Origin: Candidatus Poribacteria bacterium
GTDB lineage: Bacteria; Poribacteria; WGA-4E; PCPOR2b
Length of the DNA stretch: 64,000 nucleotides
Reading direction: 5' to 3'
Assembly: GCA_022822005.1 (NCBI GenBank)
Contig: JAJECO010000040.1
Coordinates: forward strand, 126,090 to 190,089
How positions within the stretch are numbered: the first letter of the stretch is position 1; every line of letters begins with the position of its first letter. This document shows, piece after piece, positions 3,450 through 47,890 of this stretch. The notes under the pieces were generated by a model that did no database searches, had not been told where the DNA came from, and saw only the letters and a program-made list of their open reading frames with translations. The position numbers and the translations under genes were made by a program.

Positions 3450-5063
3450 CTACTGTTTCATCGTCGTAAGCACAAGCCGCGCCTCACTCTGTTGCATATC
3501 AGGTGCTTTCTGTTTCTTTTTCATCCCGCGAAAATCACGCGCTGCCTGTCTGGCATCTTTAGCAGTCAGGAAGAGATAGCCGTCGCTCTCATACGTCTGG
3601 ATCGGTGGAAATACCTCAGTCTGTGCTGCAACAACGAGGAGCTCCGCACCAAACGGCGGGGCACACTCAAACTCCTGTGGAATTTCAACAACACGATTTA
3701 CCTTCGATTGGTCGATGTAATAGTTGTCATAGAGAAGCGTACGTCTGCTGTCGGCAAGGATGTACAGCAAACGGATGTGTGCTTCCCGATTGACACGGAC
3801 AAAAACCTTCATGGTCTCGGCTTCGGCGTAAAGCAGATGCTCGGCTCCCTTGTCCGTCCAGATTTCAATCTGTAACCCACCACTAATGAACTCACCTTCA
3901 GCAAAAGCGTGTTGTTCAACGAGCATCTGCTTATAATTCTGCGGTTTTAAGTTAAGAGCCTCCATGTCCCGGTCAAATTTTACGATAGCCCCTGCTTTGA
4001 CCACTCCTGTTTCTATATGCCGCAATGTCGCCCGGAGCGTGATCTGATCGCCATTTTCCCAATACGTGCCGGACAGGAGCAAACTCGCACCAACCTCGTT
4101 AGCAAAGTCACCCATGGACTGAACTGAACCGGGTCGAAGCTTCCTGTGTAAACGGCGCGTTTGATTGATAGTTTCCCACTTGGCTATCTGCCCTAGCTGC
4201 GCCTCAAGCGCGGTGAGGAGCTGACGGGAAAAACGACTGCTCATCTGGGTATCTTGATAGGTGAACGGTACCAGTAGAACTTTTCCCGCTGGCTGTTTGA
4301 TCTGCTTTGAGAGTTGAAGCACGATAGAGCGAGCGACGCCATCAACGGAAGTAATCGACTCCATCACAAGTTGCTCAATACGATTGATAACCTCTGTATG
4401 CGACGGAATTGGCGCAATATCGGATTCGCCAATAAGTTCTTTTCTAACGTTTTCTAATTCATCGAAGGCAACATCACTCGGACTGCCGTAATGTTTCACC
4501 ACCAATAGGACAATTTCTGCCTCTTTCAACGCTTCGTAAAGCGGATAAGTGCTCAGGTATTTTTCCACCGCTATATCTATGTTTGAAGCGTTCTCCGCCT
4601 CCTCGGCATCAGCAAGGATCCGCCGAATCTCCTCGCGAAGTGTTGATGCTCGTGTGGTATAGATGCGTTTGAGTTCGGCCCGACTGACGTAGGCAAGAAC
4701 GTACGTGGTTGGATTGCGCTCGGCATCAACGTAAGTTTCCGTTTCGATCCCTAACAGTTTCAGTGCCGTCGTGCTCTCGGTGACTCCACTATACTGCTGG
4801 GATAGAGTGCCATTCGCATCCGATTCGGAGGTGCGAATGACACTCTTGACCTTTGTAATGATGTGACGGGATATATCCGCTCGTGCGCCCTCCGCAGCAC
4901 TTCGGCGAGGTTCAGCACCACTCCCCCAAGCACTCCCAAAACCGACGAGGTAACTGTGAATAGGCCACTCTTCGGAACGCCCATAGTTCTTAACCCAATT
5001 GGGTTTTGCAGCGCAGGCGGTCGTTGTGAACAGAATAAAGAAACAAAAAAACAGATTTCGCAT
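3450..5063 (-). CDS. LPP20-type / DUF4384 envelope protein
   Basis: A 537-residue exported protein. The N-terminus is a signal peptide ending TTTACAAK, a possible but weak lipobox. Residues ~20-160 look like an LPP20 domain (SYLVGFGSAWG, then an ARADISR helix). A middle part (~250-370, KVLLVPFTYQDTQMSSRFSR) resembles FlgO/CsgG-type periplasmic domains. Residues ~400-510 match a DUF4384-like domain (MKVFVRVNREAHIRLLYILA). No clear Shine-Dalgarno precedes the ATG, which lies in an AT-rich leader. It is the last gene of a minus-strand set with an Ig-like lipoprotein, two caspase-like proteins and a second LPP20-like lipoprotein. DUF4384 and LPP20 proteins often neighbour bacterial caspases. The molecular role is unknown. 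Confidence 0.75.
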   Translation of the reverse strand: MRNLFFCFFILFTTTACAAKPNWVKNYGRSEEWPIHSYLVGFGSAWGSGAEPRRSAAEGARADISRHIITKVKSVIRTSESDANGTLSQQYSGVTESTTALKLLGIETETYVDAERNPTTYVLAYVSRAELKRIYTTRASTLREEIRRILADAEEAENASNIDIAVEKYLSTYPLYEALKEAEIVLLVVKHYGSPSDVAFDELENVRKELIGESDIAPIPSHTEVINRIEQLVMESITSVDGVARSIVLQLSKQIKQPAGKVLLVPFTYQDTQMSSRFSRQLLTALEAQLGQIAKWETINQTRRLHRKLRPGSVQSMGDFANEVGASLLLSGTYWENGDQITLRATLRHIETGVVKAGAIVKFDRDMEALNLKPQNYKQMLVEQHAFAEGEFISGGLQIEIWTDKGAEHLLYAEAETMKVFVRVNREAHIRLLYILADSRRTLLYDNYYIDQSKVNRVVEIPQEFECAPPFGAELLVVAAQTEVFPPIQTYESDGYLFLTAKDARQAARDFRGMKKKQKAPDMQQSEARLVLTTMKQ

Positions 5064-5214
5064 AATTAAATAAATATTGAGATTTCAAGTAAAGGTATGT
5101 TTTGTACCTACTCAACGAGAGCAACACAAGCGCTGATGGAAGTTAACCCTGTACCTTACCGGGACAAACTTTCTGCTGTAGTTGCATAGCCCAATAGGCT
5201 CGTTACCACACCAT

Positions 5215-6669
5215 TCACCGTTTGATATCGGTAACAAAGGTAATCGTCTGTTTCGTTGTATTATTGGCATTATCCCTGACATCAATCTCAATTTTGTAGG
5301 TTGTCTCGCCAGCAAGTCTTCGCGCCGAACCTGCAGTCAGTGTTGCTGTTTGACCCGACACGTTTGCAATCCAGTTGAGATCCTTCCCCGCCTCATCAGT
5401 CAACCTTATGCTTCCAATGATAGGTTCGTTAAAATCAAACCTGAAACCATCAGCATTGCTTCGATTAACATCAATCCTTACGTCGCCATTTGACACCGTC
5501 CCAGTTACTATTGATGGGTCCGTCGTATCTGGAACAGTAATGCTAACAACATCTGAAAGGCGACCTGACCTCGCGGTGATGACTGTTTGACCATTAGCCC
5601 GGGCAGTGACAAGCCCTGTTGAACTGACGGTTGCGACAGACGGATTACTGCTCGTCCAATTGACTCTTACACCCGCGATAACGTTGTTTCGAGGATCGCG
5701 CACAGTAACGCTCAACCGCAAGGCTCGTCCGACATTGATCAAAGGTGGATTGGCTGAAGTGATTTTGATTGTAATTGGTAACTGTGCCACGGTTATATCA
5801 GTGGTCCCGTATTCGTTACCTGATCTCGCTGTGATAGTAGCGGTCCCGTTACCCCGGGCGGTAACGAGTCCAGAGATCACGCTTGCCACAGCGTGCTTAC
5901 TGCTTGACCAATTCACAATCGCGTCCGGTATGGGCTGGTTTTTCTCATCTTTTACCGTAACACTTAGCTGCATAGTGTCTCCAATCGCTTCCAGCGTTGC
6001 CGAGGCGGGAGTGATGTTGATTAGCCCTGGTTCTTGTGCCACAGTAATCTCCGCGGTGTCTGATGCCTTTCCAGATGTCGTCGCTGTGATAATAGCGGTA
6101 CCGTTGTCACGAGCAGTAATCAACCCTGATGCACTGACACTTACCACAGTGTGCTTGCTGCTTGACCAATTCACAATCGCGTCCGGTACAAGCTGGTTTT
6201 TCTCGTCCTTTACCGTACTACTTAACTGCATAGTCGCTCCAATCGCTGGCAGCGTTGCAGCAGATGGGCTAATGTTGATTATAAGAAGCCCTATTAGTTC
6301 TATAGCAAGTTGATTTTCACCACTTGAAATATTAACCGTGTCGGAGCCCACGAATAAACGGTTCCCCCCCTTAAAGACCTCTACGTTGACTTCCCTCTGA
6401 TCACCAACCGGAACATCATTAACCGTTACCTCATAAGTTCGGTTGAGTCCTTCGACAATTGCAAGATTCTGTTCCTCTATAATCTGATTTGGGATATCGG
6501 CTGCTGTTATTGTTATTTTGACGATATAATCCCCAGCTGCCATTGGGCTCAGAAAAGCGAGAGGAATATCCATTGAAGAAAGATCCTCCATGTCGTCGCT
6601 TCCACAGCTTGAGAAAACCAGGGTTAACCCCATAGCAACCCCTATCATCAAAACCAAACTTTTTGACAT
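5215..6669 (-). CDS. Lipoprotein with three Big_2 Ig-like domains and an SbsA-like C-terminal domain
   Basis: A 484-residue surface lipoprotein. The signal peptide ends in the lipobox VFSSC. Residues ~125-375 hold three bacterial Ig-like (Big_2) repeats, seen as VNWSSSKHTVVSVSASG, VNWSSSKHAVASVISG and VNWTSSNPSVATVSSTG, each followed by LxTARxNGxxxITA. The first two are nearly identical, so they duplicated recently. Residues ~385-484 form a different Ig-like domain (GFRFDF..., GKDLNWIANVSG). The same domain ends the lipoprotein at 42785. AAGGG precedes the ATG. Adhesive or scaffold role is inferred from the domains. It sits among the caspase/LPP20 genes. Confidence 0.85.
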   Translation of the reverse strand: MSKSLVLMIGVAMGLTLVFSSCGSDDMEDLSSMDIPLAFLSPMAAGDYIVKITITAADIPNQIIEEQNLAIVEGLNRTYEVTVNDVPVGDQREVNVEVFKGGNRLFVGSDTVNISSGENQLAIELIGLLIINISPSAATLPAIGATMQLSSTVKDEKNQLVPDAIVNWSSSKHTVVSVSASGLITARDNGTAIITATTSGKASDTAEITVAQEPGLINITPASATLEAIGDTMQLSVTVKDEKNQPIPDAIVNWSSSKHAVASVISGLVTARGNGTATITARSGNEYGTTDITVAQLPITIKITSANPPLINVGRALRLSVTVRDPRNNVIAGVRVNWTSSNPSVATVSSTGLVTARANGQTVITARSGRLSDVVSITVPDTTDPSIVTGTVSNGDVRIDVNRSNADGFRFDFNEPIIGSIRLTDEAGKDLNWIANVSGQTATLTAGSARRLAGETTYKIEIDVRDNANNTTKQTITFVTDIKR

Positions 6670-6897
6670 TATCTATACCCTTCTACTCATCGCTCACCGA
6701 GCCTTTATCCGCGAGATGGATTTCCTACTCGCTTGAGAACTAGTCGTCACACAATTCATTACAAACGTACGCAATTACCCCAGCACGACTTCGATTAGTA
6801 CAGATGTCCAATTCATTATGACTATCAGCCAGCGCAGAATCAGTAAATTATAGACTTCCGACGCACAATTCCCACACCATCAGAAAGAGGTGATCTT

Positions 6898-8163
6898 TCA
6901 CGGAATGTTTATTGAAATTGTTAGGTCCCCGGTCGGTGGTGGGTCTACCGGACCTTCGTAGAGTAGGTACGCGGCAACACCCGCCCCAGACGCGACAATA
7001 ACTCCTCCGAGAATAAAGGGCCATTTTGATCTGCCTTTCCGGGGTGGCGGCAATCGTCGGAGCGTGGGGCTGACTTGAATCTCTCTTCCCGCTTCAACAG
7101 TGATTCGCTGCGTATAATCCTCGTAATCCTCAAGGGTTAATTTCAACATGTGTGTTCCAGCCATCACATCTTGAATTCGCACCGGTGTGCGTCGTGCTTG
7201 CAAAATACCGGCGAGCATCACTTGCGCCCCGGCGGGTTGGGAGGAGACAAAAATTGAGCCAATTGGCATCAATGGTGGTGAATCCCCAGGAAGCACGAAA
7301 ATAAAATCGCCTTTGTTCAATTGCGGATCCATGATTTTGCCATGCTGCGGATGTTGCGCTCCGTTGTTGTATTCAGGCACTGTCATTGCTAAATGTGCTC
7401 CCAACTCCTCTCCTGTTATGTAACCATCAGGAAATGGATCTTTTGCCTTACCTTGGATAAGGTCTAAGAACTCTTGTTTGAAAACACTACGACCGGGGAC
7501 CTGTTCATTAGCATGTCCCGCAGTGATGAACTGCCGTACCGGTTGATTGACACTGTCCGAAATATGGGCGGGAGTTACCCCGGCTTGTAAGTTGAGAATT
7601 GTACCAGACAGGCAACTGTCAAACATAAAGAGCACATGCCGCGATTGCACCGACCTCGTTTGCATAATCAACGACGTTATATCCATAGCTTTGAGTTTGA
7701 AGTTGATTGTATCCTCTTCTGGCGGTGGAGTATCAATCATTACCAGATAGCCAAGGTCTTCACCGGTCGCTAGCCTCTGGGTGTAACCGTGCCCTACATA
7801 ATAAAACAGAAGGCGGTTGTATGGATTTCCACCAGCGTTGGCGACAAAATCAGCGAACACCTTTTCAAATTCCGGCTTCGTCAAGTCTTTTTTTAACGTC
7901 ACGGAGAAGTTATGTTCCTCAAGAACATCTGCAACTTCATCCACGTCCTGAAGAACGCCTGAAAGCTGTGGCCAGCCCTCAGTGTAGCTGCCATTGCCGA
8001 CGACGAGTGCGTAGGAGTCTTTATACAATTCAATTTCTTCGCCCTGCTGCGTGCGGACGGAAAGGGTTTCCGTACCGCGGGGAGCCTGTGCTAACAAATC
8101 TCCGACGGCACCCAAACATAAACAAAGCAGCATAACAAGTAGAAAAATCAGATGTTTTTTCAT
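6898..8163 (-). CDS. Secreted caspase-like (C14) protein with PEGA domain and C-terminal membrane helix
   Basis: A 421-residue protein with a signal peptide (residues 1-26). The caspase p20-like domain covers ~46-290 and has the expected dyad H125 (FYYVGHGYT) and C184 (FMFDSCLSG). A PEGA domain follows (~302-370, GSIFVSSQPAGAQVML), then a basic stretch and a hydrophobic helix (~382-402). A short tail rich in proline follows. The protein is thus probably periplasmic or surface-facing and anchored at both ends or by its C-terminus. ATG 8163 is chosen because the signal peptide starts there and AAAGAGAT precedes it. It is a paralogue of the next caspase gene upstream in transcription. The protease substrate is unknown. 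Confidence 0.88.
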   Translation of the reverse strand: MKKHLIFLLVMLLCLCLGAVGDLLAQAPRGTETLSVRTQQGEEIELYKDSYALVVGNGSYTEGWPQLSGVLQDVDEVADVLEEHNFSVTLKKDLTKPEFEKVFADFVANAGGNPYNRLLFYYVGHGYTQRLATGEDLGYLVMIDTPPPEEDTINFKLKAMDITSLIMQTRSVQSRHVLFMFDSCLSGTILNLQAGVTPAHISDSVNQPVRQFITAGHANEQVPGRSVFKQEFLDLIQGKAKDPFPDGYITGEELGAHLAMTVPEYNNGAQHPQHGKIMDPQLNKGDFIFVLPGDSPPLMPIGSIFVSSQPAGAQVMLAGILQARRTPVRIQDVMAGTHMLKLTLEDYEDYTQRITVEAGREIQVSPTLRRLPPPRKGRSKWPFILGGVIVASGAGVAAYLLYEGPVDPPPTGDLTISINIP

Positions 8164-44729: not shown

Positions 44730-44885
44730 CGCCAATTCTCCTTATCGATTTGTGTAGAATACATTCTCTTTCATTATACGTAATCGAAAAATGTTGGTCA
44801 ATACAAAAAAATCGGCAACGCTTGTGAGATTTTTGCGCTGAGATCCGTCTAATATACAAAAGCCTTCTAGTAAGGAGAAAAATCC

Positions 44886-47696
44886 ATGCGAACGGAAGAT
44901 GGACATATCATCCACAAATGTCTTGGTGGAGATACCGCAGCGTTTGGCTTACTTGTAGATAAATATCGAGCGAGTGTCTACGCATTAGCTTACTCGAAAC
45001 TCGGCAACTTCCACGACGCCGAAGACGTCACTCAAGAAGTCTTCCTCAAAGCATATCAGAAACTTCGTACGTTGAAACAGTGGGATAGGTTTCTGGCATG
45101 GCTTTATGCAATTACTTCTAATCTGTGTAAGGATTTTTCGCGCTCAAGGTCGAATCGTCCCGATACTGAGTACATTGCCGACCAAAAGAAAGAACACGTG
45201 GAAAAGCTTTCGATGACCTCTCATCACGAAACCGAAGTCTATCAATCGCTTCACGAAACATTGGCTGTGCTGCCTGAGATACATCGACAGGTCTTAACCC
45301 TACACTATTTGGGAGGCATGAGTTACCGAGAGATTGCCCAGTTTCTTGGAACATCACCCCATGCGATAGCTATGCGACTCAACCGCGCTCGCTCTAAATT
45401 GAAAACGGAGATGCTGACACTGATGAAAGCAAGTTTTGACCAACACAAACTCCAACCGGCGTTTACTCTTAACATCGTTGAAATTATTCAGCGAATCCAA
45501 ATTCAATCCAATCCGCGGATGCCAACTATTCCTGTAGGAGTTGCCACTGTGGGCTTATTGACGCTGCTATGTCTCACCGCAACTTTCGATCCATTTTGGG
45601 TGATTGGTAGTCTGGTCGGTGCGCCGCTCACCAGCGACACTAAAGTCACGAAAGTCGGCGAGATTCCTACAGAAGTGGTTGTGCTTTCGAAAGCGTCAAT
45701 TCTTTCAAGCAGTTATAGTAAAAAGGATTTAGCAGGAAATCCTCAGTCGGCCGATGGGATACAGGCTGCCAATACTTACACCGGAGCAAAAACAGCCGGG
45801 CAGGATAAACCTTATACTCGTCTTGGCAACGGCACGGTTCACACCATCGCCTATTCCCCGGACGGTAGTTTAATCGCCATTGTGGGAAATAGCACTTGGC
45901 TCTATGATGCTAACACGCTCGCGGAAGTTGGGATGATAGAGCGCAGCGCGCGCTCAATCGCTTTCAGTCCCGACGGACGGACTTTGGCATCTGGAAGTTG
46001 GCCAGATCCAGATCGCACTGTTCATCTATGGGATGTAGCAACCCAAGAAATGGTGGGAGGATTACAGTTACCGGGGCTAAGGGGCGTGACTGCCGTTGCC
46101 TTCACGCCCGATGGAAACACCCTCGCTGTAGGCTATGGAGACGGAGATATCGCTTTATGGGATATGAAAACAAAACGCCAAATTGCACAACAGACTGTGA
46201 TAAGGCGCATTCTTACAAGTATCCCTTGGACTTTAGCTTTCAGTCCTGATGGGCAGCTATTGGCTGCGGGTGGACATGAAGCCCCCGCAATTAGTCTGTG
46301 GGAGGGGCATGAAGCCTTCATCATCAGCCTATGGGACGTGCCAACCCTAGAGTTTGTAGGATCATTTGAAGAACAGCCCGGTGATACATGGTCACAGAAT
46401 CATGCGGTCTCGTCTATTGCCTTTAGCTCGGATGGCGCAATCTTAGCTTCGGGCAGCCACTACGATTACACGGTCCGCCTTTGGGATGTAACGACTCAAA
46501 GGCAAATCGCTCTGTTGCTAGAGAACGACGGTAATGAAGAAGATGAAGCCGTAAACGCTGTGGCCTTTAGCCCAGATAGCGCAATCTTGGCTTCAGCCGG
46601 AGATGACGCTAAAATCCGACTGTGGGACGTAAAGACTCAAACACAGATCGATGTATTAGATACAAGTACCGGCACTGTGAGCTCTATCGCTTTTCGTCCG
46701 GATGGAAAAACACTGGCATCTCTGAGTGGTCTGGAACAGTATAGGCGGACCTGGCAGAAGAGTGGAGATATGTCTGTTCGCCTTTGGGATGTAAAAACCC
46801 GGAAACAGATCGCTATGTTTCAGAATCACACCGCTGACATTAAGGCGGTAACACTCAGTCCGGATGACACACTTCTCGCCTCGGGGCACCGAGACGGTGT
46901 CGTTACATTATGGAATATGCAAACTCAAGAGTCGCTTACAATCCTGCGAAATCACACGGCGGCAGTCCTATCCGTAGCTTTCAGCCCGGATGGGCTCCTG
47001 CTTGCTTCAGGCGAAAAAGAAAAAACACGGTTGTGGGATGTCCAAACGAAAGAGCAGTTCGAGATCTTTACGATGGCTAACACAATTGTAAAGTCAGTTG
47101 CGTTCAGCCCCGACGGGAAGATCCTAGCTTTGCTTGATGGCAGCTGCATTCGACTCTGGGACATGCGACAGAAAAGCGATATCCGTGTGTTGGGGCAGGA
47201 AGCATCACACGAAGGACCAACTCAACCGCACAGCACTATAAGGTCAATGGCTTTCAGCCCAGATGGCAAGTTGCTAGCTTCGGGAGGCACTGACAATACG
47301 CTTCGTTTGTGGGAGGTGCAGAAGCCACAGGAAATTTTCACACGAAAAACTCAGAGTAGTATATTTGCCCTTGCGTTTAGCCCCGACGGGAAAATCTTGG
47401 CTTGGGGAGGAGATCCCGAAGAAATTTATTTATGGCATGTAGAAAAACAGGAGCTAGTCACAACATTGAGCATGCAGGGCTGGCTCAAGACACTCGCCTT
47501 CAGCCCTAACGGACGCTTTCTCGCTGCCGGAAATGGAGGATCAACTTGCATGTGGGATTTGAAGACGCAAGCAAAGATTGGCCCCTTTTATGGTCCTGCC
47601 AATTCGCTCATTTTCAGCCACGATGGCAAGAAACTCATTGTGGGCGGTGTGGATGGTATCATTATCCGGAACACCGACACGTTCGAGGAGAATTGA
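44886..47696 (+). CDS. ECF sigma factor fused to membrane helix and WD40 propellers
   Basis: A 936-residue protein. Residues ~10-80 are sigma region 2 (DAEDVTQEVFLKAYQKL) and ~118-175 are region 4 (LPEIHRQVLTLHYLGGMSYREIA without a break, helix-turn-helix ending RLNRARSKLK). A hydrophobic helix follows at ~213-233. Residues ~310-935 hold about 14 WD40 repeats with cores like FSPDGRTLASGSW and VRLWDV, enough for two seven-bladed propellers. The likely topology is a cytoplasmic sigma domain and extracytoplasmic propellers. AAGGAGA precedes the ATG. Sigma-WD40 fusions are known from Planctomycetes. No separate anti-sigma gene is adjacent. Confidence 0.93.
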   Translation: MRTEDGHIIHKCLGGDTAAFGLLVDKYRASVYALAYSKLGNFHDAEDVTQEVFLKAYQKLRTLKQWDRFLAWLYAITSNLCKDFSRSRSNRPDTEYIADQKKEHVEKLSMTSHHETEVYQSLHETLAVLPEIHRQVLTLHYLGGMSYREIAQFLGTSPHAIAMRLNRARSKLKTEMLTLMKASFDQHKLQPAFTLNIVEIIQRIQIQSNPRMPTIPVGVATVGLLTLLCLTATFDPFWVIGSLVGAPLTSDTKVTKVGEIPTEVVVLSKASILSSSYSKKDLAGNPQSADGIQAANTYTGAKTAGQDKPYTRLGNGTVHTIAYSPDGSLIAIVGNSTWLYDANTLAEVGMIERSARSIAFSPDGRTLASGSWPDPDRTVHLWDVATQEMVGGLQLPGLRGVTAVAFTPDGNTLAVGYGDGDIALWDMKTKRQIAQQTVIRRILTSIPWTLAFSPDGQLLAAGGHEAPAISLWEGHEAFIISLWDVPTLEFVGSFEEQPGDTWSQNHAVSSIAFSSDGAILASGSHYDYTVRLWDVTTQRQIALLLENDGNEEDEAVNAVAFSPDSAILASAGDDAKIRLWDVKTQTQIDVLDTSTGTVSSIAFRPDGKTLASLSGLEQYRRTWQKSGDMSVRLWDVKTRKQIAMFQNHTADIKAVTLSPDDTLLASGHRDGVVTLWNMQTQESLTILRNHTAAVLSVAFSPDGLLLASGEKEKTRLWDVQTKEQFEIFTMANTIVKSVAFSPDGKILALLDGSCIRLWDMRQKSDIRVLGQEASHEGPTQPHSTIRSMAFSPDGKLLASGGTDNTLRLWEVQKPQEIFTRKTQSSIFALAFSPDGKILAWGGDPEEIYLWHVEKQELVTTLSMQGWLKTLAFSPNGRFLAAGNGGSTCMWDLKTQAKIGPFYGPANSLIFSHDGKKLIVGGVDGIIIRNTDTFEEN

Positions 47697-47700
47697 AACC

Positions 47701-47767
47701 CGTTTCTGAAGAAGGAAACGTCTCGCCTCCTAATGTTACTGCTTTATCAGCATCGGGAGGTTTTTTT
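47701..47767 (+). terminator. Double hairpin terminator after the sigma-WD40 gene
   Basis: A first perfect hairpin CGTTTC/GAAACG (47701-47720) is followed by CCTCC (47726-47730) pairing with GGAGG (47756-47760), with an inner TGCT/AGCA. Seven T follow at 47761-47767. The second is a convincing intrinsic terminator. Confidence 0.7.
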
Positions 47768-47890
47768 ATGCGATAAAATGGCTTTGATTTCTCAGCGAGA
47801 TTTGATACACTTGAAGGGGATTCAAGAACTTTTCTAAATTACATAGAGTAGCGTGTTACTGTCAACTACATCGAAAATTGGAGGAGAATA

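Follow-up and report, generated by a model that had tools for sequence, protein, structure and literature searches.

Does the gene at positions 44886-47696 of the window, as we call the whole 64,000-nucleotide stretch of a Candidatus Poribacteria contig analysed here, encode a sigma factor that serves as its own receptor? The original prediction placed sigma regions 2 and 4, one membrane helix and about 14 WD40 repeats in a single chain and proposed that such a protein could sense an external signal without a separate anti-sigma factor. We consider it probable that the protein is a complete transmembrane signalling system, in which a linker and a helix tether a cytoplasmic sigma factor to an external WD40 sensor of two propellers, and the sigma factor is released by a protease and transcribes its own gene.

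Domain order and predicted membrane topology

The gene and all features described here lie on the plus strand. The coding sequence starts with ATG, is preceded by a ribosome-binding-like AAGGAG read from the sequence (44872-44877) and specifies 936 aa, ordered as ECF sigma factor, linker, transmembrane helix, disordered stretch and a WD40 part of 14 repeats. The ECF sigma factor, which is intact, occupies aa 1-180. Pfam places sigma-70 region 2 (PF04542, Sigma70_r2, E 2.4e-16) at aa 23-89 (44952-45152) and region 4 (PF08281, Sigma70_r4_2, E 6.1e-16) at aa 120-172 (45243-45401), and the alignment identifies SPHAIAMRLNRARSKL as the recognition helix of the latter. Regions 1.1 and 3 are absent, as in the ECF (group 4) layout, and a phmmer search against PDB matched SigW, SigH and RpoE across both sigma regions (best E 6.5e-20). 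Next come a conserved cytoplasmic linker (aa 181-213; 45426-45524) with the pattern L.P.(F/L)T..I...I.R.....P..KP..PW, a helix predicted to be N-in/C-out (aa 214-232; 45525-45581), a juxtamembrane and disordered stretch (aa 233-310; 45582-45815) and the WD40 ectodomain (aa 311-936; 45816-47693; Pfam E 3.2e-87). The ectodomain contains exactly 14 SPDG-type repeat anchors, the first from aa 323, a number that would fit two seven-bladed propellers. Just 3′ of the stop codon is a hairpin that, with the T run after it, resembles an intrinsic terminator (47725-47768; fold -13.9 kcal/mol, z -2.3); the hairpin exceeds the loop limit of the separate regulatory-element scan. Rfam gave no match around the gene.

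Three orthologs, in genomes G006, G009 and G012, are 935-956 aa long, are 63-65% identical to the protein across the N-terminal 310 aa and keep the domain order unchanged, which excludes a chance fusion. Identity to the orthologs is about 80% in sigma region 2 and 46-60% in the WD40 part. The predicted composition of the chain is thus borne out by Pfam, PDB, the repeat anchors, hydrophobicity and the orthologs.

The segment at aa 214-232 is the sole strongly hydrophobic one (mean Kyte-Doolittle 1.95), and it is modest as a membrane helix, with an apparent insertion energy near zero on an approximate scale. AlphaFold, given the full protein as a single sequence, returned a model with pLDDT 36, of which only the secondary structure was read; this low-confidence model draws a helix at 216-233. 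The weak insertion score would suit a soluble cytosolic protein whose hydrophobic segment is folded into the interior and whose WD40 part controls the sigma factor via cytosolic partners, as in the published model for ECF57; regulation through cytosolic protein binding has been proposed for both ECF42 (TPR) and ECF57 (WD40) (PMC8999054). Several observations make this reading improbable. Most C-terminally extended relatives have a single transmembrane segment at one position (aa ~209-249), and in 58 of 62 relatives Lys and Arg are commoner N-terminal to the helix than after it (3.24 vs 1.45 per roughly 20 aa). The helix is missing from sigma factors of the same genome that carry cytosolic-type extensions (ankyrin, LRR or PurC). 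Moreover, 19 of the 20 complete WD40 proteins in this genome have a hydrophobic, export-like N-terminal segment, many exported-type WD40 proteins continue with ..LPEGAKARLGKG..IAYSPDG..LAVASSIGIWLYD.., and the start of the ectodomain studied here, RLGNGTVHTIAYSPDGSLIAIVGNSTWLYD, resembles the post-signal start of the genome's WD40 proteins. The other ectodomains in the family belong to classes that envelope or secreted proteins commonly carry. Given the charge bias, the helix-less cytosolic types and the export-like WD40 relatives, the WD40 part is computed to lie outside the cytoplasmic membrane, which lends computational support to the membrane tether and external sensor of the original prediction.

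The poribacterial family and its ectodomains

The protein, first seen singly, is one member of a large family. Its 6.0 Mb genome has 41 sigma region-2 matches, and about half of these genes encode a long C-terminal extension. An alignment of 62 relatives revealed a conserved frame of sigma factor, linker, helix and juxtamembrane motif, after which, from about aa 290, the sequences diverge. The protein conforms to this pattern in its L.P.(F/L)T..I...I.R linker, its transmembrane segment at ~214 and its ectodomain past ~290; the family juxtamembrane motif (V/I)E(L/I)I(E/D)AP(V/I)V appears here as EVVVLSKAS (aa 263-271).

Beyond the frame, relatives carry WD40, PD40, Kelch, BNR/Sortilin-Vps10, carboxypeptidase-regulatory plus AhpC/TSA (thioredoxin), transglutaminase, peptidase M61, M16_C or Ig-like Big_5 ectodomains, and a more distant pair has DUF4159. 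The best named relative (L110), from a Candidatus Poribacteria MAG, has a Kelch propeller where the protein studied here has WD40. On a quick sigma tree, for which change counts are approximate, ectodomain type requires 24 changes, where 9 would be the fewest possible, and the starred branches force at least 7 changes for the WD40 ectodomain. Searches with the linker-TM module alone found 14-40 modules per genome in the sister family f3, 0-3 in f1 and f2, and none in f4.

Some sigma genes depart from the common frame. In two genomes (L045:1648-3153 (+) on G000:C58 and L155:1029-2591 (+) on G004:C6) a SAICAR synthetase domain (PurC, PF01259) sits in frame exactly at the position of the paralogs' transmembrane helix. 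A close relative of the sigma factor studied here (L155:2928-5297 (+)) continues straight into thioredoxin, TPR and PD40 domains without a transmembrane helix, and the sigma factors at L041:68-2350, L040:2535-4037 and L039:1808-3799, with ankyrin, LRR and helical extensions, respectively (the last without a Pfam match), also have no post-sigma transmembrane helix. Two adjoining sigma-TM proteins (L044:1241-3397 and 4723-7008, on G000:C58) combine a Pro-rich TonB-like stretch with DUF4159. One relative with linker, helix and BNR/Vps10 domain is sigma-less (L143:7701-9944 (-)) and convergent with the G006 ortholog. We rejected it as an anti-sigma factor acting in trans, as DRLYPVLIHWKKELTM, resembling a truncated region 4, can still be read in the frame upstream of it; it is probably a 5′-truncated copy, and no second clear sigma-less relative was found among the loci examined.

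Promoters of the gene and its relatives

The gap at 44730-44885, where a target promoter was predicted, contains a bipartite ECF-type candidate (44824-44852). A -35-like element, GTGAGATTT (44824-44832), is followed after 13 bp by the -10-like element CGTCTAA (44846-44852), 34 bp upstream of the start codon. The three orthologs share this layout, and across the four genes the pattern GTGA(G/C)ATTT-N13-CGTCT(A/T)A starts 61-62 bp ahead of the ATG. Its positions are invariant at 19 of 27, compared with at most 9 in 200 shuffles, a contrast inflated by the relatedness of the sequences, although conservation drops visibly in the flanks. In all four genomes the exact bipartite pattern has a single match, which lies ahead of the sigma-WD40 gene, and a stricter pattern recovers the same four sites. 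A looser pattern adds a single site, within infB of G000. As this sole extra match is inside infB, we rejected a regulon in the protein's own genome, and matches with one mismatch occur near the control level. One of these (L187; G006:C5:33063-33091), on the contig of an ortholog, lies 86 nt before a gene for a lipoprotein that looks like the binding protein of an ABC transporter. No sigma-70 type promoter was found on the plus strand upstream of the start codon, where promoter-like matches are at shuffle level.

Most family promoters share a -10 of C(G/A)TC, and -35 elements differ between subfamilies. For example, GCACCAGTTT occurs with the recognition helix SANTVRSRLRRAQQRL, GTGAGATTATTTTT with SEA(A/T)IRNRLYRAR, and CTGTGACTTTTT with SVGAIKNRVYRAQERL or close variants, and each of these pairs is found with differing ectodomains. 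Among 29 f3 genes, the distance between -35 elements correlates with that between recognition helices (r 0.50, p<0.001) and between sigma-2 regions (r 0.69, p<0.001) and shows no correlation with that between ectodomains (r 0.11, p 0.12). Because the -35 elements follow sigma-2 too, the shared ancestry of promoter and sigma gene could account for a large part of this correlation without direct recognition; promoter and gene are inherited together, so conservation of the promoter is not proof that the sigma factor reads it. Since the promoter is unique to the position ahead of the gene and -35 elements follow the sigma part, we infer that the gene likely activates itself from its own candidate promoter.

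These promoters also bear on whether the sigma domain matters at all. The protein might be mainly an envelope protein with an incidental, vestigial sigma domain at its N-terminus, as the enzyme-like ectodomains of some relatives (transglutaminase, M61, M16) could act alone and one relative has no sigma part. This is very hard to reconcile with sigma regions that are the best conserved part of the protein and have HMM scores above the cut-off, and with family promoters that track the sigma part; the sigma-less copy, the only clear case, resembles a 5′ truncation. We regard a vestigial sigma domain as extremely improbable.

A search of four f3 genomes for one family promoter, allowing at most 3 mismatches, returned 22 sites, 16 of which precede sigma genes of the family. 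Three others are within long opposite-strand frames, one is before a transposase-like ORF and one has no ORF in reach. The remaining site (L337; G050:C1:3159435-3159464) has one mismatch, lies 78 nt ahead of an exported WD40 gene and also matches the family promoter in the sequence past the -10; the exported WD40 protein is thus a candidate regulon member of a sigma receptor. More broadly, and with something short of even confidence, we propose that Poribacteria may make extensive use of sigma factors as transmembrane receptors. A genome would encode as many as about 40 such single-chain receptors, whose ectodomains are exchanged freely while every sigma factor retains a recognition helix and a private promoter that match; each receptor would amplify itself along with a regulon of very few genes, those for exported propeller proteins among them.

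Tethering, probable release and known systems

No anti-sigma gene was found among the neighbours of the gene, and no conserved neighbour genes or synteny around it; we rejected a separate anti-sigma gene next to it. Pfam detected no anti-sigma domain in the linker, nor any match up to E 1 between the linker and the ectodomain start (aa 181-320). The expectation that no separate anti-sigma factor is needed therefore agrees with what adjoins the gene and what is detectable in the linker. With neither an anti-sigma domain nor such a neighbour, the tethering itself is likely the inhibition, perhaps aided by the conserved linker helix.

How would the sigma factor then become active? The parallel with IutY and the long variable stretch that follows the helix both favour release by regulated proteolysis. 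IutY is the sole studied membrane-anchored ECF fusion and is released by Prc and RseP; extended ECF factors appear in classifications, yet activation by proteolysis has been demonstrated for IutY alone (PMC8999054). A gene for an RseP-type M50 metalloprotease (PF02163) is present in the genome studied here, although its presence proves little, as the family occurs in all 14 control genomes. Without a stimulus, anchor and linker would hold the sigma factor away from RNA polymerase. Once a ligand or partner bound to the propellers, a first protease would gain access to the disordered stretch next to the membrane, a site-2 protease would then cut the helix, and the freed sigma factor would transcribe its own gene from GTGAGATTT-N13-CGTCTAA, together with further targets, as positive feedback.

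Activity while tethered is a serious rival with the same topology. CadC and ToxR act while membrane-tethered, and here the ectodomain might shift the oligomeric state or the linker and so recruit RNA polymerase at the membrane without cleavage. The linker nearly matches region 4 in conservation (mean IC about 2.2-2.6) and surpasses the sigma2-sigma4 linker, which suggests a working joint, and no specific protease partner gene is nearby. However, the sigma factor must leave or move with the elongating polymerase, the variable stretch past the helix (29-34% identity between orthologs) resembles a cleavable spacer, and the fate of IutY also points to cleavage. On balance we judge action at the membrane unlikely, well behind release by proteolysis.

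WD40-extended and membrane-anchored ECF factors are already known; the promoter before the gene is new here. As the original prediction stated, WD40-fused sigma factors are on record in Planctomycetes, where ECF57 and the Tuwongella and Gemmataceae factors likewise join sigma to a C-terminal WD40 part (PMC8999054, PMC8567305). ECF57 has two conserved cysteines possibly linking sigma2 and sigma4, whereas there is no cysteine in region 4 here (aa 121-180). In a Gemmataceae genome (G059, L312-L327) many extended sigma factors have one transmembrane segment about 70 aa past sigma and varied ectodomains. As some of these sigma-TM proteins (L312, L315, L318 and L322) carry WD40, the architecture is not unique to Poribacteria, although the linkers differ (~70 aa of LxRRGLAL... 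type vs ~33 aa of L.P.FT...KP..PW type). IutY of Pseudomonas putida (ECF243) also combines sigma factor and membrane anchor in one chain with no separate anti-sigma factor, but it belongs to a cell-surface signalling system and has a recognisable fused anti-sigma part, in contrast to the WD40 ectodomain and lack of a detectable anti-sigma part here. The actinobacterial ECF48/52/53 (e.g., SCO4117), for which proteolysis has been proposed, similarly have a C-terminal extension with a transmembrane helix and an extracytoplasmic part; their anti-sigma portion is of zinc-finger type, whereas the linker here (aa 181-213) has no cysteine. ECF41, ECF42 and ECF56 are extended sigma factors that also do without a classical membrane anti-sigma factor, but their SnoaL or TPR extensions are soluble and have no transmembrane segment.

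In the main paper on poribacterial single-cell genomes, WD40 proteins are described as abundant and sigma factors go unmentioned (PMC3909097). We found no description of a poribacterial sigma-linker-TM-ectodomain family in the open-access literature, within which the family structure and private promoters appear undescribed so far; an earlier account elsewhere is possible.

With its many naturally exchanged sensors on a single sigma-linker-TM frame, and with a promoter that can readily serve as a reporter, the family makes release, self-activation and what the propellers sense directly testable. Its naturally paired recognition helices and -35 elements are material for orthogonal sigma switches. 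Finally, the family gives a hint of the way in which sponge-associated and free-living Poribacteria sense their environment.
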